Source: Thermodesulfobacteriota bacterium
GTDB lineage: Bacteria > Desulfobacterota > WTBG01 > CAIYCZ01 > CAIRTM01
NCBI GenBank assembly: GCA_028282925.1
Contig: JANQGV010000317.1
Coordinates: forward strand, 1-53,559
Direction of reading: 5' to 3'
DNA length: 53,559 bases
Under the pieces are notes generated by a model, which saw only the letters and a program-made list of their open reading frames with translations, did no database searches and was not told the DNA's origin. Each line of letters begins with the position of its first letter. Positions within the stretch are counted from its first letter, which is position 1. Shown here in pieces: positions 521-14,000 of the stretch. The position numbers and the translations under genes are program-made.

Positions 521-3500
521 TTATCGCCGGGATTTTAACTGTATTTCTTTTATGGCGCAGTAGAGTACCGGCACCACCAGAATGGTGACGATATTGATAA
601 CCATGCCGCCGAAAGAGGGTATGGCCATGGGTACCATAATATCGGAACCGCGGCCTGTGGATGTCAGGATCGGCAGCAGGGCCAGAACGGTTGTGGCGGT
701 TGTCATAAGGCAGGGTCTGACCCGTCGCAGGCCGGCCTCAAGGGCAGCCTGTCTGATTTGTTCGGTGGTCTTTGGTTTGTTTTTTTCAAACGTCTGGTTA
801 AGGTAGGTTGCAACCACAACACCGTTATCGGATGCAATGCCGAACAGGGCCAGGAAGCCGACCCATATGGCCACGCTCAGGTTGATGGGGTGAATCTGAA
901 ACAGATCCTGCAGATTGGTTCCAAACAGGGAGAAGTTGAGGAACCAGGGCTGCCCGTAGAGCCAGATCATTATAAACCCGCCGCCCCAGGCAACGATAAT
1001 GCCTGAAAATACCAGCAGGGTGGTTGAGACGACCCGGAACTGAAAATAGAGGATCATGAATATGATAAATAGAGCCAGGGGCAGGATAACGGACAATTTT
1101 TTCTGCGCCCGGACCTGGTTTTCATAGCTGCCGGCAAAAACATAGCTTACGCCGTCAGGCACCTCCAGTTTGCCCTGCTCGATTTTGCTTTGCAGGTAGC
1201 TTTGGGCCTGTTCTACAACATCGACTTCGGCATAGCCCTTTTTTTTATCAAACAGGACATACCCGACCAGAAAAGTGTCCTCTGATTTGATGACCTGAGG
1301 ACCGCGTACATAGCGAATGTGCGCCATTTGACGCAGGGGCACCTGGATGCTGCCCGCTCCCGGTACCAGGATGCTTCCCAGTTCTTCAAGGGAATCGCGT
1401 AGCTCTCTAAGATAACGGACCCGGACGGGGTAGCGCTCCCGGCCTTCCACCGTCGTGGTAATGCGCTTGCCGCCGATGGCCACCTCGATAATTTCCTGGA
1501 CCCGGCCTACACTCACTCCGTAGCGGGCTGCGGCCCTGCGATCTATATCGATTTCAATATAGGGTTTTCCCACAATGCGGTCGGCTATGACGGCCGCGGG
1601 CTCCACCGAAGGCACTTCCTTAAGAAGTGTTTCCAGCTCCAGTCCGAAACGCTCTATGGTTTCAAGGTCCGGACCCTTAACTTTAATTCCCATGGGAGCA
1701 CGCATGCCGCTTTGCAGCATCACAATTCGGGCGGATATAGGCTGCAGTCGCGGGGCCGAGGTGGTGCCGGGGATTTCCCCGGCCCGGACAATGGCGTCCC
1801 AAATGTCGTCCGGGCTGTTAATGCCGGGCCAAGGGTCGCGGCCGTCATTGTGCTCCGGGTCAAGGGCAGGCCGCCACAGACGGAACGGCATTCCATCCGG
1901 ATCGGGGATAAGGTTGTTATCCGCGTCGCGAACAAAAGCGCCTTTTGTTTTATATGGTTGACCGTCGGGGGTCGGCAGTGGTTCTCCATTCAGGCCCCGG
2001 ACATAATCGGCCCGGTTCGGGTCGAAACTGAAGGTAAGTCGTTTGCCGTTTTCATCCAGCATATATTGGGGGTAGTAGTTGATAACGGTTTCGATCATGG
2101 ATACCGGAGCCGGGTCAAGGGGTGTTTCGGCCCGCCCCAGCTTTCCGACAACCGAATAGATTTCGGGGAGAGACTGAAACGCCATGTCCTGCTTTTGGAG
2201 TACATCAAGCACTTCGCCGATTGAAGCATGGGGCATGGTGGTGGGCATATACAGAAATGATCCTTCATCCAACGGCGGCATGAATTCCTTGCCCAGGCCG
2301 GGAAAGCTATGGGCCACAGCGGATACCGGCGCGAACCGTTTTATGGGAGCAGGGAGCCAGCCGAACAGCGACTCAAAGCCCAGCCAGATAAGCAGCCCCG
2401 ACAGGCTGATTAAAAGAGGAATCGCCAGAAAAGTGGATTTGTGGTTAAGACACCAGCCCAGGATACTGCTGTACTTGCGCTGGAACAGTTGAAAAAAGCC
2501 GAGAATGCCGCCCACAAGAAGGGCCACAAACAGCATGTTTATAATCAGGCCTTTTTCCGGCCCCAGGGGCAGCCAGTGATTTGATAAAACAATACCAACA
2601 AGCAGCACGGCAAGGCAAATGGCAATCCGCGGCATTACGCGCCGGATGTGATCCGGAATTTTGTGTTCACACAGCCGGTACATCCCGAATGCAAAAATAA
2701 TACATCCGATCCACCAGTTCAGCATAACCCCTGAAACGACACCGGCTAGCAGAAGAAGGCAATAGAGAAAGCGGCGCAGCATTTTGCCGTTGTGTCTGCC
2801 GGAAAAAACGATATGGGCAAGGGGCGGTATAATGGTCAGGGCCACGATAACCGATGCAATCAGGGCAAAGGTTTTAGTGAAAGCCAGGGGCTTGAAAAGT
2901 TTACCTTCGGCGGCCTCCATGGTGAATACCGGCAGAAACCCCACAACAGTTGTGGCAACAGCCGTCAGGACCGCACTGCCCACCTCGCAGGTGGACTGAT
3001 ATATGATTTCCAGCCTGCTTTTTTCAGGGGATGCACCATCAAGGTGTTTAAGAATATTTTCACAGATGATAATCCCCATATCCACCATGGTTCCGATGGC
3101 AATGGCAATGCCCGACAGGGCCACAATATTTGCATCGATGCCGAATAGTTTCATGGCAATAAAACACATCAGTACGGCCAGGGGCAGCAGGGCTGAAATC
3201 AGCACCGAACTCCACAGATGCATTACCATTACCAGGATAACAATAACGGTAACCAGGATTTCTTCGGTAAGTGCCGTATTGAGCGTATCAAGGGTTTCGT
3301 GAATCAGCCCGGTCCGGTCGTAGAAGGGGACAATTGTGACCTGGCTGACCGTGCCGTCGGCCAGGGTTTTTTTCGGCAGGCCGGGGGTAATTTCGGCAAT
3401 CTTCTTTTTTACGTTTTTAATGGCGGACAGGGGATTGTCGCCATAGCGGACAACCACAACGCCGCCCACGGCTTCGGCGCCCCCCTTGTCAAGAGCGCCG

Positions 3501-4411
3501 CGGCGCAGGGCCGGACCCAAAGTAACGGTGCCGATATCCTTGATATACAGGGGCACCGTGTTGTTGACGGTAATGACGCTGTTTTCAATGTCTTCAATTT
3601 TTTTTACAAAACCCAGTCCCCGGATGACGTATTCCACTTTGTTGACTTCAACGGTGCGGGCGCCGACATCGATATTGGCGCTTCGCACGGCGGCAATCAC
3701 GTCATCAAGGCGGACCCGATGAGCCCGCATGGCGGCCGGATCGACATCGATCTGGTATTCCTGAACAAACCCACCCACAGAGGCGACTTCGCTGATGCCT
3801 TCGGCGGACAGCAGGCTGTAGCGTACCTGCCAGTCCTGGATGGTACGCAACTCGTGCAGGTCCCAGCCGCCGGTGGGGCGGCCGTTTTTATCGCGGCCCT
3901 CAAGGGTATACCAGAATATCTGGCCCAGGGCCGTTGAATCAGGCCCCAGCGACGGCCGTACTCCGGCAGGAAGGGTGTTGGGCGGCAGGCTGCTTAATTT
4001 TTCAAGAACCCTCGTGCGCGACCAGTAGAAGTCGATATCGTCCTTGAAAATAACATAGACGGTTGAAAAGCCGAACATGGAAAAGCTGCGTACGGTTTTA
4101 ATGCCGGGAATGCCCAGCAGGGATACGGTCAGTGGGTAGGATATCTGGTCTTCGATGTCCTGGGGTGAACGACCCGGCCATTCGGTGAAGACAATCTGCT
4201 GGTTTTCGCCGATATCGGGAATGGCATCAACCGGAACCGGATCGCGGGGAAGCATGCCGACAATTCCGCCGTCCCAGTCGAAAGGGGCCACAATGATGCC
4301 CCAGCCCAGCACCAGCAGTACCATCAAAAAGACGACGATCTTCATTTCAAGGCAGTACCGGATCAGGCGTCCGAGCAGGGAAGGACGCTTCAGGGTATCG
4401 GAATTATTCAT
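521..4411 (-). CDS. cusA: CusA/CzcA-type heavy-metal RND efflux pump, enlarged
   Basis: Inner-membrane proton-driven pump that exports Cu(I)/Ag(I) through a CusCBA-type tripartite complex. The 1296 residues clearly match the HME-RND family: N-terminal helix, periplasmic porter domain, and a TM4 signature around residues 432-453 (IGTMVDMGIIICEN) with the charged Asp and Glu. A Met-rich segment (GMRAPMGIKVKG, about 902-912) fits the Met relay for soft metals. It is about 250 residues longer than E. coli CusA. One insertion (about 545-640) adds hydrophobic helices after the first membrane block, and another (about 783-885) is a polar periplasmic loop. Its start overlaps the end of the cusB-like gene by 8 nt, so the two are translationally coupled. 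The metal, Cu rather than Zn/Co, is inferred from the neighbouring csoR-copZ-copA. Confidence 0.93.
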   Translation of the reverse strand: MNNSDTLKRPSLLGRLIRYCLEMKIVVFLMVLLVLGWGIIVAPFDWDGGIVGMLPRDPVPVDAIPDIGENQQIVFTEWPGRSPQDIEDQISYPLTVSLLGIPGIKTVRSFSMFGFSTVYVIFKDDIDFYWSRTRVLEKLSSLPPNTLPAGVRPSLGPDSTALGQIFWYTLEGRDKNGRPTGGWDLHELRTIQDWQVRYSLLSAEGISEVASVGGFVQEYQIDVDPAAMRAHRVRLDDVIAAVRSANIDVGARTVEVNKVEYVIRGLGFVKKIEDIENSVITVNNTVPLYIKDIGTVTLGPALRRGALDKGGAEAVGGVVVVRYGDNPLSAIKNVKKKIAEITPGLPKKTLADGTVSQVTIVPFYDRTGLIHETLDTLNTALTEEILVTVIVILVMVMHLWSSVLISALLPLAVLMCFIAMKLFGIDANIVALSGIAIAIGTMVDMGIIICENILKHLDGASPEKSRLEIIYQSTCEVGSAVLTAVATTVVGFLPVFTMEAAEGKLFKPLAFTKTFALIASVIVALTIIPPLAHIVFSGRHNGKMLRRFLYCLLLLAGVVSGVMLNWWIGCIIFAFGMYRLCEHKIPDHIRRVMPRIAICLAVLLVGIVLSNHWLPLGPEKGLIINMLFVALLVGGILGFFQLFQRKYSSILGWCLNHKSTFLAIPLLISLSGLLIWLGFESLFGWLPAPIKRFAPVSAVAHSFPGLGKEFMPPLDEGSFLYMPTTMPHASIGEVLDVLQKQDMAFQSLPEIYSVVGKLGRAETPLDPAPVSMIETVINYYPQYMLDENGKRLTFSFDPNRADYVRGLNGEPLPTPDGQPYKTKGAFVRDADNNLIPDPDGMPFRLWRPALDPEHNDGRDPWPGINSPDDIWDAIVRAGEIPGTTSAPRLQPISARIVMLQSGMRAPMGIKVKGPDLETIERFGLELETLLKEVPSVEPAAVIADRIVGKPYIEIDIDRRAAARYGVSVGRVQEIIEVAIGGKRITTTVEGRERYPVRVRYLRELRDSLEELGSILVPGAGSIQVPLRQMAHIRYVRGPQVIKSEDTFLVGYVLFDKKKGYAEVDVVEQAQSYLQSKIEQGKLEVPDGVSYVFAGSYENQVRAQKKLSVILPLALFIIFMILYFQFRVVSTTLLVFSGIIVAWGGGFIMIWLYGQPWFLNFSLFGTNLQDLFQIHPINLSVAIWVGFLALFGIASDNGVVVATYLNQTFEKNKPKTTEQIRQAALEAGLRRVRPCLMTTATTVLALLPILTSTGRGSDIMVPMAIPSFGGMVINIVTILVVPVLYCAIKEIQLKSRR

Positions 4412-6425
4412 GCCGGTGTCCTTCCTGCTTTTCTATTGTTTTGCCGGGGGCAATGGTTTCTTTTTTCACACCGCAGCGAAACATTGAGCTGCCGTAGTAG
4501 GGGTTTTCGGTCTGGTCCGCCATTTGCAGCCAGTAGGCGCCCCGGTTGTTGAAAGCCATGGGGCAGTGGAACCGGTGTATGATCATGGTACCGCCGGTGC
4601 CGAACCGCCGGGTAACGGCATAAAGGGTATCGGATATTTTTTCAAACCGTGACCGCAGCTCCTCTATGGTTTTGGTCCGACCTGCCGATGTCAGGTGGCT
4701 TTTGAGTGTTTCCATATCCTGCATCCACAGCATATGGGCTTTGCCGTGCAGCAGCTTCATGTCTACGGCCTGCAGGGCTTTTTCCAGTACGGCAATACCT
4801 GCCAGCGCATCTTTATATTTATCAAGGCTCAGGGCCTGCTGGATGGTGTAATAGGCAATAACCGTGTTGTCGATCTGTTGCTTGAAAGCGGCTGGAGAAT
4901 CAAGTGTTTTAATATCCTGGGCGGTCTTTTCAGGGTCGTCTGCTTTGGAGGCCTCTCCATGGTGATGACCTGCCGGGGCATGCCCCCCTTCGGGGTTCAT
5001 CATGCTGGGTTTAGCCAGAATCTGGACGGCGCTGTCCAGTTTGAAGCTGCCGTTTACAACCACTTTTTCACCTTCATCAAGGCCGGTTTTGACAATATAG
5101 AAATCTCCGGCCCGGGGGCCAAGGGTGATTTCCCTACCCTCAAATACCCCACCTTTTTCGGGTGCGGCAACGTAGACCACAGCCCGCTTGCCGGTAATCA
5201 GCGGTGCAGAGGCGGGGATGACCAGGGGGGCCTTGTCCGGGCGGTCGGCGGCAACGTATCCCAGCGATTCGGTTGTAACCAGATCCATGCCGCAGATATT
5301 ACAGGTGTTTTTTGTGTTTTTAATTATCTCAGGATGCATGGGACATATCCATTTTCCGGACAGCTCCGGCTCCATAACCGCTCCGGCCATGGCCACTTGC
5401 GGATATACACGGGCTGTCACAAACATGTCGGGTTTTAGTTTACCGTTCGGATTGGGTACATTGACCCTGACTTTTACGGTTCTGGTTGCCGGATCCAGCG
5501 TCGGATCGATGAAGGTTATGCGGCCGGTAAACAGTTCGCCGGGATAGGCCTTTGTTTCAAACTCGACCTGCTGGCCGTACCTGAGCCAGGTCAGGTCGGA
5601 CTCATAGGCATCAAGCTTTATCCATACCTGAGACAGGTCGGCCACAGTGTAAATGCGGGTGCCGGTTTTAACATACATGCCTTCAAAGCCGTTTTTATTA
5701 ACAACAATGCCGCTGATGGGAGAATAGATGGTTATCTGATCCGAGGCATTGCCGCTTTTTTCAATATGCCTGATCTGTTGCGTGGTAAGGCCCCAGAGGC
5801 GAAGTTTTTCACGGGTAGCTTCAACGTTTTTCAGGGTGCTCTGCCGCACGCGCCCGCTTTGTCCTTTCAGCATTTTCAAGCCCAGCAGCAGTTCCTTCTG
5901 GGTTGTGAGCAGTTCCGGGCTGTACAGGGACACCAGGTGGTCGGCTTTGGATACCCTTACGCCGGTATAATCGACAAAGAGGCGCTCGATTCGTCCGGGA
6001 ACCCAGGCAGTGATGTAGGAGAGCCGGGTTTCATCAAAGGCAACCATGCCGTCCATCCTGATTTCGGCTGAAACGTATTTCCGCTCCACCGGGGCGGTCT
6101 GAATGTCGGCCAGCTTTACTGCCTCGGGAGAGAGGGTCAGTTGCCGCACTCCGGCTGCCTGGCCGGTGCCGGATTCATAAACCGGTATCAAATCCATGGC
6201 GCACAGCGGACACGTTCCGGGGTTGGGCTGCTGAATCTGGGGATGCATCGAGCAAGTATAGAACTTTACAGATGCCTGCTCTTGCGCGCCGGGCGCATGC
6301 TGTGAGGAAGTGGGTTCTTCCCCGCACCCTCTAAAAAGATAGCCGAAGATAAAGGCGAAAAGCAGCAGGATGCCTGTGGTAACCAGTGGGTGCCGCTGTA
6401 GCGCGGATTTTAACGGGGGCCTCAT
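4404..6425 (-). CDS. cusB: RND periplasmic adaptor (CusB-like) with two heavy-metal-binding domains
   Basis: Membrane-fusion protein that links CusA to TolC and can hand metal to the pump. It has an N-terminal anchor helix, then a YHS-like metal-binding domain (YTCSMHP...CPLCAMDLIPV, about 55-82). The coiled-coil/barrel adaptor core follows, and a second such domain (WICPMHP...CNICGMDL, about 359-382) is embedded after it. A His-rich linker (HAPAGHHHGE) leads to a DUF3347-like C-terminus (about 510-660) with Cys and Met residues. I place the start at 6425, where AAGGAG lies 6 nt upstream; an ATG 15 nt earlier has no such site. It has 673 residues, against about 400 for E. coli CusB. It ends inside the start of cusA. 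Confidence 0.92.
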   Translation of the reverse strand: MRPPLKSALQRHPLVTTGILLLFAFIFGYLFRGCGEEPTSSQHAPGAQEQASVKFYTCSMHPQIQQPNPGTCPLCAMDLIPVYESGTGQAAGVRQLTLSPEAVKLADIQTAPVERKYVSAEIRMDGMVAFDETRLSYITAWVPGRIERLFVDYTGVRVSKADHLVSLYSPELLTTQKELLLGLKMLKGQSGRVRQSTLKNVEATREKLRLWGLTTQQIRHIEKSGNASDQITIYSPISGIVVNKNGFEGMYVKTGTRIYTVADLSQVWIKLDAYESDLTWLRYGQQVEFETKAYPGELFTGRITFIDPTLDPATRTVKVRVNVPNPNGKLKPDMFVTARVYPQVAMAGAVMEPELSGKWICPMHPEIIKNTKNTCNICGMDLVTTESLGYVAADRPDKAPLVIPASAPLITGKRAVVYVAAPEKGGVFEGREITLGPRAGDFYIVKTGLDEGEKVVVNGSFKLDSAVQILAKPSMMNPEGGHAPAGHHHGEASKADDPEKTAQDIKTLDSPAAFKQQIDNTVIAYYTIQQALSLDKYKDALAGIAVLEKALQAVDMKLLHGKAHMLWMQDMETLKSHLTSAGRTKTIEELRSRFEKISDTLYAVTRRFGTGGTMIIHRFHCPMAFNNRGAYWLQMADQTENPYYGSSMFRCGVKKETIAPGKTIEKQEGHRHE

Positions 6426-6482
6426 GTGATCTCCTTGCATGCCGCTCTGTAACGGATAACGGCAGGTCGCAGTAACGGTTTA

Positions 6483-6743
6483 TTATTTTTTGGCAGCCGG
6501 TGTTTTTGCCGGCTCATACCCTGCATCTTCTAGTTTTTTTATGAACTTCTCGGGGTTCTTCTTAAACGGCTCAATGCAGCCGGCGCAGCAGAAATAAACC
6601 CTCTTGCCGTTATGGTCGGCGTACAGTTCCGTGTTGATTTTTCCGCCCATGACGGGACAGTGGGTCTGGGGTTTAGCAAGAGCGGCAGTAGTGAAAATAC
6701 AGGTAGCGGCGATCAGTACGGCAAGGGTTGTTATTGTTTTCAT
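6483..6743 (-). CDS. Exported YHS-domain metal-binding protein
   Basis: Eighty-six residues with a Sec signal peptide (cleavage near ALA-KPQ) and a YHS domain: CPVMGGKIN, then FCCAGC, then NPEKF. The spaced cysteines are typical of small copper-handling YHS proteins in cus operons. It sits between the TolC gene (55 nt upstream) and cusB (about 57 nt downstream) on the same strand, so it is probably a periplasmic Cu chaperone for the exporter. The role is inferred from context; the domain itself is clear. Confidence 0.82.
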   Translation of the reverse strand: MKTITTLAVLIAATCIFTTAALAKPQTHCPVMGGKINTELYADHNGKRVYFCCAGCIEPFKKNPEKFIKKLEDAGYEPAKTPAAKK

Positions 6744-6798
6744 TCTTATTCTCCTTGTTGTTTGTATAACATTAAAAAAATGGGAGCCGGACCAATCA

Positions 6799-8154
6799 TT
6801 AAAAAAGTCTGGCTCCTGCTATTGTTTCAAGTTCTGCAAGGTCCTTCTGATAGGATGTTTTTGCTTTGTGATATTGTATTTCGTAATTAAATAGTGTGAT
6901 CTGGCTGTTCAGCACATTGAGAAAGTCTGTTTTGCCGACCTGGTAGGCGGCCATGTCGGCATCCAGAGTTTGCCGGGCACTGGGGATAATGCTGTTTTTG
7001 TAGAGTGTCGTCAACTCCCGGCCCTTATCCGCCTTTGCGTGCAGGTCTCTGATGCGGAAGCAGATATCGTTTTTGGCACTGTTATACTCTGATTGCACCT
7101 GGGCGACACGGTGAAACGCCTCGGAAACACCCCGGCTTTGTTTGCTCCTGAACCAGATCGGAATATTAATGCCTACCAGGAACGAAAAAAAGTCGGGACG
7201 GTCCTTGTCGTAGTTGAGCGGCAGCGTGGTAACGTCATTAAATGACCCATCCGGTGCCGTTACCCGTGTAGGGTAGGGCTTCGCCCGTACCCGGTCATCA
7301 CGCTGCCCATAGGATGCCGTGACGCTGAACTGGGGGAAGTACATTTTTTTCGACAGCTTATGCTCGGCTTTACTTTTTGCAACAGCATGCTCAAGGGCGC
7401 GCAGGCGGGGGTTGGCGGCCAGGGCCATCACTTCCAGCTCTTCGGCGGTATGCTTCAGTTCGATCAGTTCCATTGCCGGTTCACCGACAATGGGCTCGGA
7501 AGGGCTGCGGTTAAGCAGGTTGTACAGCCGGGCTGTAATCGTCTGCCGCTCCTGCTCAAGGGTAATAAGCTGCTCCTGCATTTTAGCCAGCGACACCTGG
7601 GCTTTCAGCACATCTGCCTGCAGTCCGCTGCCCACTTCATACCTGGCCTGGGTAAGCTCCACAAACTGATTAAGCAGCTTCAGGTTTGCCTGGATAATGC
7701 CGTGAGTTTCCCTGTTCAGGCAGTAGTCGTAATATGCCTGCTTTACATTTCTGACTATGGTGAGCTGCATATTGTTTAAGTCCTGCTCGGCTGTTTTGGC
7801 GGTTTCAACGGCGGCTTTTTCTTTCAGCGATTTGATGCCCGGGAAAGGGATATTCTGCCGCAGGGAGACTGTTTTCTGGGTCATGTCCTGTTTGTTGAAA
7901 TCAAAATCGTCGGTGGGAAGGTTGGTAACCCCGAGGGTCAGCATCGGATCATCCCATGCTTTTGCCTGGGGAGGCTTTTCCCATAAAGCGTCTTTCCGTT
8001 TTTCAAAAACGATAATCTGCGGATTGGAAGAAAGGGCTTCTTCAATTAACGGTTCGAGTTCAAGGGGCTCTTTAGCCGGACAGGGAGATGAGCCAAGACA
8101 GAAAATAATTCCGCCCATGAGTATGATGAAAATAATTTTTACACTGTTTTTCAT
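6799..8154 (-). CDS. TolC-family outer-membrane channel of the cus operon
   Basis: Outer-membrane factor of the tripartite exporter. It has 451 residues with an N-terminal signal sequence and two tandem OEP repeats made of long amphipathic helices (for example SLRQNIPFPGIKSLKEKAAVE near 85-110, and the matching RQTLDADMAAYQVGKTDFLNVLNS near 390-415). The PFPG stretch after the first beta strand is typical of CusC-like members. AAGGAC lies upstream of the ATG at 8154. The next upstream gene ends 9 nt away, so the genes form one operon. Confidence 0.9.
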   Translation of the reverse strand: MKNSVKIIFIILMGGIIFCLGSSPCPAKEPLELEPLIEEALSSNPQIIVFEKRKDALWEKPPQAKAWDDPMLTLGVTNLPTDDFDFNKQDMTQKTVSLRQNIPFPGIKSLKEKAAVETAKTAEQDLNNMQLTIVRNVKQAYYDYCLNRETHGIIQANLKLLNQFVELTQARYEVGSGLQADVLKAQVSLAKMQEQLITLEQERQTITARLYNLLNRSPSEPIVGEPAMELIELKHTAEELEVMALAANPRLRALEHAVAKSKAEHKLSKKMYFPQFSVTASYGQRDDRVRAKPYPTRVTAPDGSFNDVTTLPLNYDKDRPDFFSFLVGINIPIWFRSKQSRGVSEAFHRVAQVQSEYNSAKNDICFRIRDLHAKADKGRELTTLYKNSIIPSARQTLDADMAAYQVGKTDFLNVLNSQITLFNYEIQYHKAKTSYQKDLAELETIAGARLF

Positions 8155-8433: not shown

Positions 8434-8844
8434 TTAGCTTTTGTTTGAAGGCGGTGGTGTCGCCTCAAAGCCCACGAGGAGCAGTATATAGGGCTCTTCG
8501 AAATTTATTGAAACCGTACCGGTTCCGATAATGAAAGGGCCTGCCGTGCTGCCCAGCAGGGTAAACGCCAGATCGCCGTATTCTCCGGCATAGGTTGTGT
8601 TGAACGCAAGCACCGAACCGCTGAACAGTGTGCCGATGCTTACATAGAGGCCGGTTCCGTTGAAACGGGACAGACTGAGTACACCGTTTTCTCCGAACGT
8701 GATCCCGGTGTCGACAAATTCAACCGGAGAATAGAGGTAGCAGGTGTAGGTTTTGCCGGTAGGCACCTCCTGCGCCCGGGCCTGGGCGGTGTAAAAAAGA
8801 CACACAACCGCCGTTGCTACAATAATTTTTGTTGCTGCTTTCAT
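8434..8844 (-). CDS. Small secreted protein of unknown function
   Basis: It has 136 residues with a clear signal peptide ending at AQARA-QEV. The mature part is rich in Gly, Thr and aromatic residues with alternating hydrophobic stretches, suggesting a small beta-sandwich or barrel-like fold. Only one Cys is seen in the mature part, so it is not an obvious metallothionein. I do not recognise a family. It is probably the first gene of the TolC-YHS-cusB-cusA transcription unit or is read through from the Cys-rich gene upstream. The 265 nt upstream (8845-9109) hold nothing I can name. Confidence 0.6.
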   Translation of the reverse strand: MKAATKIIVATAVVCLFYTAQARAQEVPTGKTYTCYLYSPVEFVDTGITFGENGVLSLSRFNGTGLYVSIGTLFSGSVLAFNTTYAGEYGDLAFTLLGSTAGPFIIGTGTVSINFEEPYILLLVGFEATPPPSNKS

Positions 8845-9109
8845 AAAACACCTTTCAGAAATTGGCTGTTCGTTTCCTCGATACCGCTTTTAGAATAGTT
8901 CTGCAAGCTTTTTTAAGCTCAAGCGGAGCTGGTACCCCCGTCATGTCGCGGAACAAGGAATGGAACCGTTGTCGTAGCGGCTTTGTAAAAAGTCCTTGTG
9001 CATCACTTCGGCGGAAAAATACCGGTTCCGCATATCTGCAATTCCTTTGTTTTTTTCAAGGAAAACAGTTGCAAATATACAACGAGATCTAACCGAGGCA
9101 AGAAAATTT

Positions 9110-9514
9110 TTATAGAATAAACGAGGCTTTTAGAAGAAAAAGGGGATGTGGGGGTGGATGAATTTTTTTATTGTCTGTGAAAATATGCCTGGAGCAATTG
9201 ACGGGGGTACCCTTTGAGAGAGAACAATCAAGCAAAGCGGAGAGGCTTTTTATGCCAGTGGAGGTTGCGGCATACGGAACAGAGTTTGCTGCTTCAGGTG
9301 CAGTGCAGTTGCAGTGTTTTGCCGGTGGTTCGTTCCGCTTTTCTGCTGCATCGGTGTCGGATGAGCCGTCTTTGCATCCGCAACAACATTCAACTTTTTG
9401 GCAACAGGAGCATCCTTCAGGGATCAAAGCTGCCACCGCAGGTATAACCCATGCGCACAGCATCGAGAAAATAAGTATATATACAAGTTTTTTCAAGAGA
9501 TTCAATTCCTGCAT
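9110..9514 (-). CDS. Small exported protein with a dense Cys cluster
   Basis: About 134 residues from the ATG at 9514. A hydrophobic N-terminus (signal sequence ending near VAALIP) is followed by GCSCCQKVECCCGCKDG, eight cysteines in about 15 residues, and later by HCNC. Such a cluster would bind Cu(I), and the position in a copper island supports that. The start is uncertain: UUG codons a few residues downstream have a better-spaced AGGA. A promoter candidate lies at 9563-9590. Alternatively it could be a lipoprotein-like periplasmic sponge; no family is recognised. Confidence 0.55.
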   Translation of the reverse strand: MQELNLLKKLVYILIFSMLCAWVIPAVAALIPEGCSCCQKVECCCGCKDGSSDTDAAEKRNEPPAKHCNCTAPEAANSVPYAATSTGIKSLSALLDCSLSKGTPVNCSRHIFTDNKKIHPPPHPLFLLKASFIL

Positions 9515-9531
9515 GTTCAAACTAATTAAAT

Positions 9532-9553
9532 CTACAATTATAGTAGGTTGTAG
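9532..9553. promoter_or_regulatory. Inverted repeat in the leader of the Cys-cluster gene
   Basis: CTACAA at 9532-9537 faces TTGTAG at 9548-9553 with a 10-nt spacer. It lies just downstream of a leftward promoter candidate and upstream of the start at 9514, a normal place for an operator. It is not a CsoR-type site. The regulator is unknown. Confidence 0.3.
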
Positions 9554-9562
9554 CATTTTTAA

Positions 9563-9590
9563 AGTATAGTATGCAATGGTTATTTTTCAA
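9563..9590 (-). promoter_or_regulatory. Sigma-70-like promoter for the Cys-cluster gene
   Basis: On the minus strand, TTGAAA (9590-9585) is followed after 16 nt by TATACT (9568-9563). It lies between the end of the gene at 9605 and the start at 9514. Confidence 0.45.
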
Positions 9591-9604
9591 TAGCCGCCGG
9601 CATG

Positions 9605-10414
9605 TCACCTTTTAACTGATCGGGCAACGGACAAATAGTGAATACGGTACTGTCCGCCCTTGAAGCTTTTTTCGTCGGCCACTTTCCGGGCTTTGGCAAT
9701 AAGTTTTTTCAGCTTTTCCTTATGTACCTTCGGATTCATAAGCATGCACGCCATATCATATTTGGCATGACCACAGTAGGGGAAACCCTCTAAGAGCTCT
9801 TCAATCTCCTCCAGTTTGGCTTCGGCATCTTCAGTCATTTTCAGGCATTCTTCCTTGAACCGGTCGTCACAGTTTACGCAGGCAAGATAGTGTTCGTGCT
9901 GCTTTTCGGGAGGTGTGGGACGGTTTTCAGGGCCGGGTGCATACTCAAAGTCCTCCATGCACTCTCCTTCCGCCAGAGCCAAAACCGCCGGATTTATGCC
10001 TACATATCCGTTTTCCCGGGCAATTTCCTCGGCCCGGGCCATGATTTTTTTGACCGTTTCCAGGTCGACTGATCCGTCCGAAAGCATGCAGCTCAAACCG
10101 AATATGGCATGGCAGCACCAGCGCATGGAGATGTATTCATGCAGATCGTCGAAGTAGGCCCCGCAGAAATCACGCACCTCGCGGCATTTAACAGGAAAAG
10201 AACACTTCATGCAGGTGTTCATGAAGCGCCCGATTACGTCGCCGAGCTCGTTGAAGTCGATTTTCTCTGCATCGAGGTTTTCCATGCGCTCGCGGTTGAC
10301 CTCTGCGCAGTAGACAGAGCAATAAAGGTTTCCCATGCGTTTAATGGGGCTTTTTTCAATAATGCCGTTGCAGACCGCACAGTGTTGCATGTCTTTATTT
10401 TCACCCGATTGCAT
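9605..10414 (-). CDS. Internally duplicated Cys-rich protein under probable CsoR control
   Basis: It has 269 residues, no signal peptide and no membrane helix, so it is probably cytoplasmic. The N-terminus (CAVC at 12-15, CSVYC at 32-36) resembles a TRASH/YHS-like metal finger; further pairs are CMKC (68-71) and CVNC (179-182). The rest is duplicated: about 87-139 aligns with about 196-253, sharing a Cys/His pair, a CML triplet (109-111 and 223-225) and a following basic helix (ETVKKIMARAEEIA versus EKLKKLIAKARKVA). I know no named family for it. A minus-strand promoter whose spacer contains the CsoR palindrome lies about 80 nt upstream, so copper induction opposite to csoR-copZ-copA is likely. 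Function is open: Cu(I) buffer, sensor or scaffold. Confidence 0.75.
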   Translation of the reverse strand: MQSGENKDMQHCAVCNGIIEKSPIKRMGNLYCSVYCAEVNRERMENLDAEKIDFNELGDVIGRFMNTCMKCSFPVKCREVRDFCGAYFDDLHEYISMRWCCHAIFGLSCMLSDGSVDLETVKKIMARAEEIARENGYVGINPAVLALAEGECMEDFEYAPGPENRPTPPEKQHEHYLACVNCDDRFKEECLKMTEDAEAKLEEIEELLEGFPYCGHAKYDMACMLMNPKVHKEKLKKLIAKARKVADEKSFKGGQYRIHYLSVARSVKR

Positions 10415-10466
10415 AGATTCCCCCGTGTTGTATAATCAAAAATTATTTTTTCTTAAGAGCTATCGG

Positions 10467-10495
10467 TTGACAGAAATGTCCAGATTGTTTATAGT
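10467..10495 (+). promoter_or_regulatory. csoR promoter
   Basis: TTGACA (10467-10472), a 17-nt spacer and TATAGT (10490-10495) form a near-consensus sigma-70 promoter. Transcription would start near 10502, inside the CsoR palindrome. Confidence 0.8.
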
Positions 10496-10498
10496 TAG

Positions 10499-10528
10499 TA
10501 TATACCCTACCCCCCTAGGGTATGTCAA
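10499..10528 (-). promoter_or_regulatory. Divergent promoter with the CsoR palindrome in its spacer
   Basis: On the minus strand, TTGACA (10528-10523) is followed by an 18-nt spacer and TATATA (10504-10499). The spacer (10505-10522) is almost entirely the CsoR-type palindrome. It would drive the duplicated Cys-rich gene at 10414. Confidence 0.6.
10502..10523. promoter_or_regulatory. CsoR-type copper operator
   Basis: ATACCCTA (10502-10509) and TAGGGTAT (10516-10523) are perfect inverted 8-mers around six C residues. This matches the GC-rich interrupted palindrome bound by CsoR-family repressors. It overlaps the start point of the rightward promoter and the spacer of the leftward one, so one bound tetramer could silence both. 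Confidence 0.8.
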
Positions 10529-10546
10529 GGGAGAAAAGGAGAAAAA

Positions 10547-10819
10547 ATGATTAACGACAAAGTGAAAAAAGAGGCCCTGACCAGGCTGAAAAGAGTTGAA
10601 GGACAGGTCCGGGGTATTATGAAGATGATCGAAGAAGAGCAGTACTGTATCGACATCATTAACCAGGTCAGTGCGGCAGAGAAAGCGCTGAACGGGGTTT
10701 CCCGGATTGTTATGAAGCGTCATGTTGAAAGCTGTGTTACCGAGGCGATTGTCCGGGGAGAAGGGCAAAACAAAATTGAAGAGTTGATCGATGCAGTTTA
10801 CAAGTATTCAAAACGATAA
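10547..10819 (+). CDS. csoR: CsoR-family copper-sensing repressor
   Basis: It has 90 residues, the usual length, and is all-helical. The Cu(I) ligands are in place: Cys34 (EEEQYC), His59 and Cys63 (KRHVESC), as in the C-H-C set of CsoR, and the N-terminal basic region (RLKRVEGQVRGI) is typical. Cu(I) binding should release it from the palindrome at 10502-10523. AAGGAG lies 5 nt before the ATG. It is the first gene of csoR-copZ-copA. FrmR or RcnR relatives are less likely because of the Cys/His/Cys pattern and the neighbours. Confidence 0.93.
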   Translation: MINDKVKKEALTRLKRVEGQVRGIMKMIEEEQYCIDIINQVSAAEKALNGVSRIVMKRHVESCVTEAIVRGEGQNKIEELIDAVYKYSKR

Positions 10820-10877
10820 AAAAAAATGGGAGGCTGTATGCTCGTTTTTATAATCTATTTTTAAGGAGTTCAAGGTG

Positions 10878-11084
10878 ATGGAGAAAAGGCTGAGCGTAGA
10901 AGGGATGACCTGTCAGAATTGCGTTAAACGGGTAAAAAAAATCATTGAAAAACACGGGGGTGTTTCCGAGGCGGAGGTCAGTCTGGAACAGAAAGAGGCG
11001 GTGTTTACCTGTGATGATACGGCCGATGTTACAGGGATTGTCAAAGCGATAAATGATTTCGGTTTTACCGCCGCTGAAAAGTGA
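10878..11084 (+). CDS. copZ: CopZ-type copper chaperone
   Basis: A single heavy-metal-associated domain of about 69 residues with the metal site GMTCQNC (Cys12, Cys15) and a ferredoxin-like beta-alpha-beta pattern. It would carry Cu(I) in the cytoplasm to CopA and to CsoR. The start is the ATG at 10878, 9 nt after AAGGAG; a GTG lies immediately before it. It ends 27 nt before copA. Confidence 0.9.
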   Translation: MEKRLSVEGMTCQNCVKRVKKIIEKHGGVSEAEVSLEQKEAVFTCDDTADVTGIVKAINDFGFTAAEK

Positions 11085-11111
11085 AACAAGAAAAACAATA
11101 TTAAGATAAAA

Positions 11112-13817
11112 ATGGTACGTACTGAAACAATTCCGGTCTACGGCATGATGTGCGGTCACTGTGTCAAAGCCGTTACCATGGCTCTTGAAGAGTTCGAGGG
11201 AGTCTCAGAGACCAGTGTGTCGCTTGAAGACTTGTCTGCCACGGTCACCTTTGATGATGAAAAGGCCGGTATCGAACAGTTTCAAGCCGCGATACTTGAG
11301 GAAGGCTTTTTTCTCGAGCCGCAGGAAGAAGAGGCGGAGGAGCCGGAAAACCAGGACACCCCGGCACCTTCAGTCGATACGGCTGAAACCGTATCATCGC
11401 AGTTCGAGCTTGAGGGCATGTCGTGTGCCAACTGCGCGGCGGCAATTGAAAAGTGCCTGGCCGGCTTGCCGGGTATACACACGGCAACGGTCAATTTTGC
11501 CCTTGAACGCCTGAAGGTGGAACATGAACCGCCTTTAACGGTTGATGAAATAATTCGCACAGTCGCCGATGCCGGATACGGTGCCCGGTCGCTCCAGGAA
11601 CGAGGTGGACAGGTTTCTTTCAAAATAGAAGGAATGTCCTGCGCGAACTGTGCCGCCGCCATTGAGAAAGCTTTTTCAGGTGTCGACGGTATTCAGCAGG
11701 CCACAGTAAACTTTTCGCTGGAAAAAGGATTTGTCGAATTTGATGAGACCCTTTTGTCCGAGGCCGATGTGCTGAAGGTGGTTGACGATGCCGGATACAA
11801 GGCGCTTCCGGACGCATCGGGTGAAAAAGGATCTATTATAGCAGCTAAAGAAAAATTCCGTTTTCTGTTTGCGCTGGCCTGTACCGTGCCCCTATTAATT
11901 TTGATGTACACCATGCCGTTCGGGCATGTCGGCACCAATTACGCCATGTTTGTTCTGGCCACCCTGGTGCAGGCTGTTTCGGGGCGTACATTTTACGAAG
12001 GCGCGTATCACTCCCTGAAAAACCGATCGACCAATATGGATGTGTTGATATCTCTGGGCATATCGGCGGCATACTTCTACAGTGTTTTTTCCCTCTTTTT
12101 TCTTGATCCCCATGCCCATACCTTTTTCGACAGTTCGGCCATGCTGATTACCTTTATTCTGGTGGGGAAGATGCTCGAAGCCAGGGCCAAGGGTAAAACC
12201 GGCCAGGCGCTGGAAAAGCTGCTGTCGCTCCAGGCCGACAAGGCCCGCATTGTGGAAAACGGTAATGAGCGCATGATACCGGCATCGTCGGTTACGGTGG
12301 GGAATCTGGTGCTGGTGCGGCCCGGGGAAAAGATACCGGTCGACGGCGAAATAGTGGAAGGCTCAACCTCAATCGACGAATCAATGATAACCGGGGAATC
12401 AATTCCAGTTGAAAAAAGCGCAGGAGCGCAGGTCACAGGGGCAACGATAAACAAGTCCGGCGTCATCACCGTGAAAACAACCAGGGTCGGCAAGGAAACA
12501 GTGCTGGCGCAGATTATAACCATGGTGGAAGATGCCCAGGCCGATAAGGCGCCTATTCAACGCCTGGCGGATGTAGTGTCGAACTACTTTGTCCCGGTTG
12601 TTATTGCTGTAGCGCTGCTTACCTTCAGTTTGTGGTTTTTGGTGTTTGATTTTATGCCACCCGCTGAATCGAGCCGCTTCCTGTTTGCTTTTCAGCTTAT
12701 GATTGCCGTGCTGGTTATTGCCTGCCCCTGCGCGCTGGGGCTGGCAACGCCGACTGCCATCATGGTGGGGAGCGGGGTAGGCCTTAACCGGGGCATTCTC
12801 TTTAAACGTGCTTCCGTACTGGAAAATATTTCAAAGCTGGATGTAGTCCTGTTTGATAAAACCGGTACCCTTACGGTCGGGAAACCGGAAGTTGCAGGTG
12901 TCCATCCAATTGGTGCCTGCTCGGAAAGAGAACTCCTGCAGCTTGCCGCAAGTGCCGGGGCAAACTCCATTCATCCCCTGTCGGAAGCCGTGGTTTTGAA
13001 GGCCCGGGACGAGGGGGTTCATATTCGGCAAACGGAGCAGGCTCGTGAGATCAGTGGAAACGGTACGGTATGCATGCTGGAGGGTAAGGAGTTGCGGGTC
13101 GGCAAGCCGTCTTTTGCGGGTGAAGGTATCGTGTTAAGCCCTGAAGCGGTTGCACTCGGCGAAACGTTTTCCGAAAAAGGGATGACCACAGTGTATGTGC
13201 GTTATGATGATCGTATAGTAGGAGTGGTAACCCTTTCCGACATGATAAAAACGGATTCTAAAGAAGCTCTTGCCGGGCTGCACAAGCTGGGTATCCGTAC
13301 AGCCCTTGTTTCCGGCGATAATCAAAAAGCGGCCCATGCCGTAGCTGCTGAAGTAGGGATCGATGAAGTGGAGGCGGAGGTATTGCCGGTCGACAAAATA
13401 AACAGTGTAAAACGCCTGCAGGCAAAAGGCTTGAGAGTCGGGATGGTGGGTGACGGCATTAATGACGCACCGGCACTTGCCCAGGCCGATATGGGTATTG
13501 CAATAGGGTCGGGAACCGATGTTGCCAAGGAAACGGGTGACGTGGTTCTGGTAAAAAACAGCCTTATGGATGTTGAGCGGGCGATTCTTCTGGGCAAGAA
13601 AACGCTTCGAACCATTAAGGAGAATTTTTTCTGGGCATTTTTTTACAATATTCTGATGATTCCGGTTGCAGCCGGAGTTCTCTATCCTGTTAACGGACTC
13701 ACGCTCAAACCTGAGTGGGCATGTATAGCCATGTGGTTTTCATCGATAACGGTAGTTGGCAATTCATTGCTTCTCAAACGATATGAAAAAAAACTAAGGG
13801 GTGATGGCGGTATGTGA
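11112..13817 (+). CDS. copA: Copper-exporting P1B-type ATPase CopA
   Basis: Inner-membrane Cu(I) exporter of 901 residues. Three N-terminal metal-binding domains are visible: MMCGHC (about 14-19), GMSCANC (about 102-108) and GMSCANC (about 176-182). The second and third are closely alike; the first is more divergent and has a His between its cysteines. The catalytic core is complete: TGES actuator loop, CPC metal site (538-540), phosphorylated DKTGT (Asp582), the P1B His-Pro pair (SIHPLSEA) and [11 protein letters not shown]. Third gene of the csoR unit, so it should be copper-induced. It delivers Cu(I) to the periplasm, where the Cus system encoded leftward would remove it. Confidence 0.96.
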
Positions 13818-13873
13818 ATTCAAAACCATATAAATAGTTTTAGAGCAATTCCCACAAAACTATAGCCGCAGTG

Positions 13874-14000
13874 AAGAACCGCACAGACTGATACGGTTAG
13901 ATTGCCTGCGGCTATGTGCTCGCAGGAAAGGTGAGAAAATATAAAGAATCCATAGCTCGCACCGCCGCGGCTGCTCTCACCGCACCAACCATTGCGATTG
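13874..14000. repeat. Repeat family B, copy 2
   Basis: It lies in the 328-nt gap between copA and the next gene, inverted relative to copy 1. Two blocks are identical to copy 1: one around CTATGTGCTCGCAGGAAA and one 27-nt block starting CCATAGCTCGCACC. The left end keeps CAGACTGATACGGTT, but the right end has decayed, so the terminal repeats no longer match. Boundaries are approximate. I see no gene or clear terminator in the rest of the gap. Confidence 0.65.

Follow-up and report, generated by a model that had tools for sequence, protein, structure and literature searches.

In the csoR-cueA region of Bradyrhizobium liaoningense, the box TATACCC-N5-GGGTATA lies over both −10 elements, and either copper or deletion of csoR has been measured to derepress both sides (PMC5057107). 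CsoR operators have the form TAC-X9-GTA flanking G tracts (PMC3902906). Described cytosolic copper proteins include Csp3, a copper storage protein that forms a Cys-lined four-helix bundle (PMC5171941), and the archaeal TRASH-domain proteins are represented by the CopM chaperone and the CopR regulator (PMC7830388). Here we describe a divergent copper locus in the window, that is, the whole stretch of DNA analysed (53,559 nt; positions 1–53,559 of the forward strand of contig JANQGV010000317.1, assembly GCA_028282925.1), which comes from an uncultured Thermodesulfobacteriota bacterium (GTDB lineage Bacteria; Desulfobacterota; WTBG01; CAIYCZ01; CAIRTM01). Positions 9000–14000 were read directly. 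In this locus csoR, copZ and copA face a gene for an undescribed Cys-rich protein, and the features of the locus are listed in Table 1.

Table 1. Features of the copper locus (window positions) and neighbouring genes at relatives' copper loci (positions within each locus)
Feature	Position	Strand	Basis or details
Leftward copper exporter CusABC	521..8154	-	outer-membrane factor 6799-8154, YHS protein 6483-6743, CusB 4404-6440, CusA 521-4411
Small exported-looking Cys-rich protein, CSCCQKVECCCGCK	9110..9556	-	weak homologs at the same loci of L013 and L017
Gene for the Cys-rich protein (269 aa, 17 Cys; undescribed family)	9605..10414	-	ORF and family comparison
Repeat 2, residues 175-265	9620..9892	-	H175 C179 C182 C190...C214-x-H216
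Repeat 1, residues 68-153	9956..10213	-	C68 C71 C77...W99-C100-C101-H102; helical, PCP_red/AAA-lid-like domain (predicted)
N-terminal treble-clef/TRASH-like metal site (putative), residues 12-36	10307..10381	-	C12-x2-C15-x16-C32-x3-C36; weak PDB profile and fold matches, including 2das
Rightward csoR promoter (predicted)	10467..10495	+	−35 TTGACA 10467-10472, 17 nt, −10 TATAGT 10490-10495; kept in relatives
Leftward promoter (predicted)	10499..10528	-	−35 TTGACA 10528-10523, 18 nt, −10 TATATA 10504-10499; six sites in five genomes
Core CsoR operator (putative), TACCCCCCTAGGGTA, TAC-X9-GTA	10508..10522	.	comparison with relatives and the PMC3902906 rule; inside the 22-bp palindrome 10502-10523
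csoR, copper-sensing repressor	10547..10819	+	PF02583; C34-H59-C63; RLKR motif
copZ-like HMA chaperone	10875..11084	+	domain search
copA, copper-exporting P-type ATPase, three HMA domains	11112..13817	+	domain search
NIR_SIR-type/133-aa neighbours, L013	6876-7784, 6462-6863
NIR_SIR-type/133-aa neighbours, L014	443-1363, 25-426
NIR_SIR-type/133-aa neighbours, L017	7050-8264, 8257-8658, 9881-10765
NIR_SIR-type/133-aa neighbours, L038	1-801
NIR_SIR-type/133-aa neighbours, L078	3-647

Interlocked promoters and the CsoR box

The 90-aa csoR product matches PF02583 at 101 bits against a cut-off of 22.8, contains the RLKR form of the RLxR motif, and has C34, H59 and C63 aligned with the Cu(I) ligands of Mycobacterium tuberculosis CsoR (2hh7). 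The nearest solved structures are those of CsoR (4m1p and 2hh7), and no other PF02583 gene was found in the window's genome.

Direct reading places both promoters where the original prediction had put them, TTGACA-17-TATAGT rightward and TTGACA-18-TATATA leftward, with 11/12 and 10/12 consensus positions and predicted starts at about 10502 and 10492, respectively. The leftward leader, claimed to be about 80 nt long, would span about 78 nt from 10492 to the ATG at 10414. This promoter is absent from the promoter scan list because the scan requires T at the last −10 position. Its spacer (10505–10522) is occupied by a CsoR-type operator, visible as the perfect dyad TACCCTA-N6-TAGGGTA at 10503–10522, which has no other exact match within the window; allowing up to 3 mismatches gives 2 matches, where chance would give 0.93. 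The claimed palindrome thus stands as a dyad in the leftward spacer, but by comparison with relatives and the TAC-X9-GTA rule (PMC3902906) the operator core is taken to be the 15 bp at 10508–10522 and not the full 22 bp, which also span an extra TATACCC left of the core that occurs in the window and G005 only. The arrangement, TAC-X9-GTA with G/C tracts at two divergent promoters, is that of a type 2 CsoR operator in a divergon. The two promoters are interlocked: each has its −35 beyond the start of the other, so that a single bound repressor would cover both. A second TACCC-N5-GGGTA occurs at 7261–7275, within the outer-membrane factor gene; none was seen there in the relatives' loci, and it is probably due to chance.

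The 132-bp intergenic region was put through 2000 dinucleotide shuffles, of which 3.6% contained a leftward promoter of at least 10/12, so this promoter is modest evidence when taken alone and the comparison with relatives decides. A rightward promoter of at least 11/12, both promoters jointly, and TACCC-N5-GGGTA were each found in 0/2000 shuffles. Five genomes of family f1, including that of the window, have csoR in a copper locus, and in all five the box lies between csoR and a divergent gene. In the full alignment, G000, G007, G005 and both G006 sites have the blocks TTGACA, TATAC, TACCC, GGTA and TGTCAAG in common and in register, while the DNA flanking these blocks has diverged. Leftward TTGACA-18-TATANN is present at 6/6 sites in five genomes, with the −10 element TATATA in the window, TATATG in G007, TATAAA in G005, TATATT and TATATA in G006, and TATATT in G002. 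The operator box is conserved in four relatives, its core reading TACCCCCCTAGGGTA in the window and TACCCCCCTATGGTA in G005; in G002 it sits at a different spacer offset, the promoter faces cusCBA, and the Cys-rich gene follows cusA.

A pattern of the leftward −35 plus the box at 2 mismatches proved too loose, controls giving similar counts, and true sites were told by location. In G002, G006 (twice) and G007, ATACCC-N5-GGGTAT was found at the csoR locus and nowhere else, and among the remaining genomes it matched only in G001, which is without csoR (ATACCCGAAATGGGTAT, contig C9). In G009, which belongs to another family, no box was recognisable at csoR, and csoR and the Cys-rich gene are on separate contigs. 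Locus L017 has tandem CsoR boxes (11288–11304 and 11388–11404), each with its own leftward TTGACA-18-TATATN; one faces a small HMA gene and the other precedes csoR.

The likeness to the measured Bradyrhizobium divergon makes copper control of the Cys-rich gene likely. Leftward of that gene and on the same strand follow, in order, the small Cys-rich protein, two small proteins, the outer-membrane factor, the YHS protein, CusB and CusA (to 521). Because the Cys-rich gene is the first in a cluster with a complete CusABC, this protein is probably not the only product of the leftward transcript, which probably reaches the CusABC genes fully or in part; a promoter-like site (9590–9563) and a 265-nt gap (8845–9109) lie inside the cluster, so it may comprise more than one transcript. 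The joint control of the export genes and the Cys-rich protein that had been proposed has strong support from comparison (six sites in five genomes, the box at the csoR locus, the linkage to copper genes), but its target would not be this protein alone. The cluster order in G007 is much the same, apart from three insertions: a second copy of the family, a siroheme/4Fe-4S protein and a 133-aa protein.

Several other genes of the cluster have features of their own. CusB has two HMBD (heavy-metal-binding) motifs and ends in a DUF3347 domain. A 136-aa exported-looking protein of no family is encoded between the Cys-rich genes and the exporter (8434–8844, leftward strand), and an exported-looking protein of similar size occupies the same kind of place in L036 (3248–3682). 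In L015, a similar-looking small Cys-rich protein heads a cus operon.

The Cys-rich family and its copper linkage

The Cys-rich ORF is a real gene under purifying selection: it differs from a 78% identical relative at 50/25/147 first, second and third codon positions. It is preceded by a GGGGGA ribosome site (10424–10419). Inspection by eye shows neither a signal peptide nor a membrane segment, which makes a cytoplasmic location plausible. Across 14 proteins in three subfamilies, 16 Cys and His residues are invariant (C12, C15, C32, C36; C68, C71, C77, C100, C101, H102; H175, C179, C182, C190, C214, H216). The internal duplication is real and the two repeats are homologous (Smith-Waterman score 102 vs 25.9 ± 4.6 in shuffles; hhalign probability 98%). 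Each repeat has a C-x2-C-x5-8-C...C-x-H site, and in 12 aligned repeats the three Cys, the C-x-H and one Gly are kept without exception.

The original description of a duplicated Cys-rich protein without a name was borne out on both counts, as neither the protein nor its relatives score above a curated cut-off in Pfam or NCBIfam, and no PHROG match is convincing. Sub-threshold matches in these three libraries were mutually inconsistent and were set aside, and PDB profile searches gave no confident relative. The prokaryotic metallothionein model PF02069 reached 13.6 bits against a cut-off of 33, and the Csp (DUF326-type) model had no match in Pfam or NCBIfam. The TRASH ligand pattern, reportedly set out by Ettema in 2003, is C-x19-22-C-x3-C; the N-terminus agrees with it in spacing (C12-x19-C32-x3-C36), and its four Cys are invariant in the 14 proteins. 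The TRASH and YHS models PF08394 and PF04945 matched none of the 14 family members, and TRASH 2das is weakly similar in structure (Z 4.2, rmsd 8.0 over 47 residues).

AlphaFold modelled the whole protein with mean pLDDT 84.7 and pTM 0.82, and repeat 1 alone with mean pLDDT 75.4 and pTM 0.69. The repeat model resembles PCP_red structures (TMt 0.73 for 2l09 and 0.65 for 2kru; about 2.1 Å over 55–60 residues), and repeat 1 alone resembles AAA+ lids (best Z 9.6, rmsd 2.9 over 77 residues). Foldseek against PDB and BFVD returned no E-value below 0.001 for the protein, so the likeness to PCP_red or AAA lids is a fold hint only. The AAA+ lid/RuvBL and histone-fold matches were rejected as signs of kinship and read as a common helical arrangement. 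The Cys/His site of the repeats is presumably an addition relative to PCP_red. The predicted fold looks unlike the four-helix bundle of Csp, although the lack of that bundle among the listed fold matches does not prove a difference.

We searched for the family in the window's own genome, in its relatives and in a sample of 395 genomes of the phylum. It is present in 11/17 genomes of the class, and the 395 sampled genomes contained no credible member outside the class; a match in G087 (19.7 bits, one internal stop) overlaps a Fur-type-repressor-like ORF and was rejected as chance. In one scan of close relatives in a genome collection, the closest named record was a Thermodesulfobacteriota metagenome bin; viral contigs and plasmids yielded no relative. 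Twelve of the 16 family copies adjoin copper-export genes (csoR-copZ-copA, copA, HMA genes, or cusCBA with or without the YHS protein). The other four are on contigs of 3.2–6.1 kb, two of them cut by the contig end; the visible neighbour of one, L034, is an aldehyde:ferredoxin oxidoreductase gene, and the copy of G009 is on a 6.1-kb contig without a copper gene. The original prediction had pointed to related genomes as the place where the same gene might recur beside csoR or under similar boxes, and it does recur there: it is divergent from csoR-copZ-copA in G007 and G005 as it is in the window. It stands at the cusCBA end in G002 and G004, and elsewhere its neighbours are Cus, HMA or CopA genes. 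CsoR and the Cys-rich gene are missing together from three genomes of the order, and within the family the two absences coincide. CsoR was not found in G004 and G010, where the Cys-rich gene is present. The association of the two in presence and absence (p = 0.06, 11 genomes) is suggestive only.

In relatives, the copper loci also encode small NIR_SIR proteins of the siroheme type that have two 4Fe-4S motifs; one of these proteins is a fusion with an HMA domain. A 133-aa protein without a family is often encoded there as well.

A proposed role in copper handling

With moderate confidence we favour the account that this locus is a CsoR divergon in which a cytosolic Cu(I) buffer or chaperone is under CsoR repression. 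In the absence of copper, CsoR tetramers on TACCCCCCTAGGGTA would block the start of csoR-copZ-copA and the spacer of the leftward promoter. Cu(I) bound at C34-H59-C63 would free CsoR, and both transcripts would start about 10 bp apart. The leftward transcript would lead to the cytosolic Cys-rich protein, which would most likely hold Cu(I) via its two C-x2-C-x5-8-C...C-x-H sites, perhaps also through the TRASH-like N-terminus, and may buffer copper or hand it over to export, CopA and CusABC then expelling it. The sequence itself shows the promoter and operator elements and how they are conserved, the linkage of the genes and the invariant ligands. We infer the binding of CsoR here, the induction, the identity of the metal and the role of buffer or chaperone; the Cu(I) reading draws on the place of the gene, its regulation and the invariant thiols. 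What appears to be one copper switch on both gene sets, together with a family that travels with copper-export genes, makes the protein probably a new part of copper survival.

The main rival, which we consider doubtful, has Zn or Fe-S in the sites and gives the protein a protective role. A site of the CxxC...C...CxH type is no worse a fit for Zn(II) or Fe-S than for Cu(I), and each repeat has a full C-x2-C-x5-8-C...C-x-H set. Cu(I) attacks Fe-S proteins, and a copper-induced protein with Zn(II) or Fe-S in its duplicated Cys sites could protect, repair or assemble Cu(I)-damaged Fe-S enzymes, or work with siroheme/4Fe-4S neighbours; the NIR_SIR/Fer4 proteins adjoin the gene in relatives' copper loci, and PCP_red, which the helical domain resembles (2kru, 2l09), also matches those neighbours weakly. 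However, the Cys-rich protein matched no Fe-S family, and the window's genome keeps the gene without a copper-linked partner of the SIR-type clade (best 27% identity). A more novel reading strikes us as improbable: the family would be a new kind of copper-response protein, in which a CsoR-controlled cytosolic metalloprotein with two duplicated C3-CxH sites on PCP_red-like domains works with siroheme/4Fe-4S partners and is not a plain copper sponge, for example by supplying Cu(I) or damaged Fe-S enzymes with sulfide or electrons.

A role for the protein as a copper-responsive regulator or sensor that adjusts the copper genes together with CsoR is very unlikely. Such a TRASH-like sensor with histone/AAA-lid-like helices would fit the N-terminal ligand spacing and the divergent placement to csoR, and TRASH domains do serve as sensors in archaeal CopR (PMC7830388), but family-model searches recognised no DNA-binding domain, several copies are inside Cus operons, and CsoR already fills the role. 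The least probable reading takes the leftward promoter-like sequence to be fortuitous or weak, with the gene constitutive or served by another promoter. It could appeal to a −10 that agrees with TATAAT at only 4/6 positions and to the share of shuffles that equal it, but it sits poorly with the retention, at six sites with diverged flanks, of the 18-nt spacing and of TGTCAAG on the far side of the box, and with the same geometry, with TATATT, facing cusCBA in G002.

Comparison with described copper systems

The usual list of bacterial copper parts comprises CopA, CopZ, Cus, Csp and metallothionein. A conserved, repressor-controlled family of one bacterial class, with metal sites of distinct architecture, would extend this list by a cytosolic member that bears on the fate of Cu(I) between sensing and export.

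The regulation is a fresh instance of the known CsoR divergon kind, and the protein family is nameless in the libraries searched. As in csoR-cueA (PMC5057107), there is one CsoR box, two divergent promoters, a C-H-C CsoR and a copper ATPase under control; in contrast, csoR faces cueA there, whereas here csoR-copZ-copA faces the undescribed Cys-rich gene and then the cus genes. The protein resembles PCP_red (PF08369; 2kru, 2l09) in the predicted repeat fold (TMt 0.65–0.73) and in sub-threshold sequence matches, but PF08369 scores 15.4 bits against a cut-off of 32.5. With the archaeal TRASH proteins it shares the C-x19-C-x3-C ligand spacing and the setting in a copper locus, but it is bacterial, has 269 aa with two further metal-site repeats, and matches neither TRASH nor YHS in Pfam. 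Like Csp3, it is Cys-rich, presumably cytosolic and proposed to protect by holding Cu(I), but it has a zinc-finger-like N-terminus, two C3-CxH sites on a predicted helical domain that looks different from the Csp3 bundle, and no match to the Csp family.
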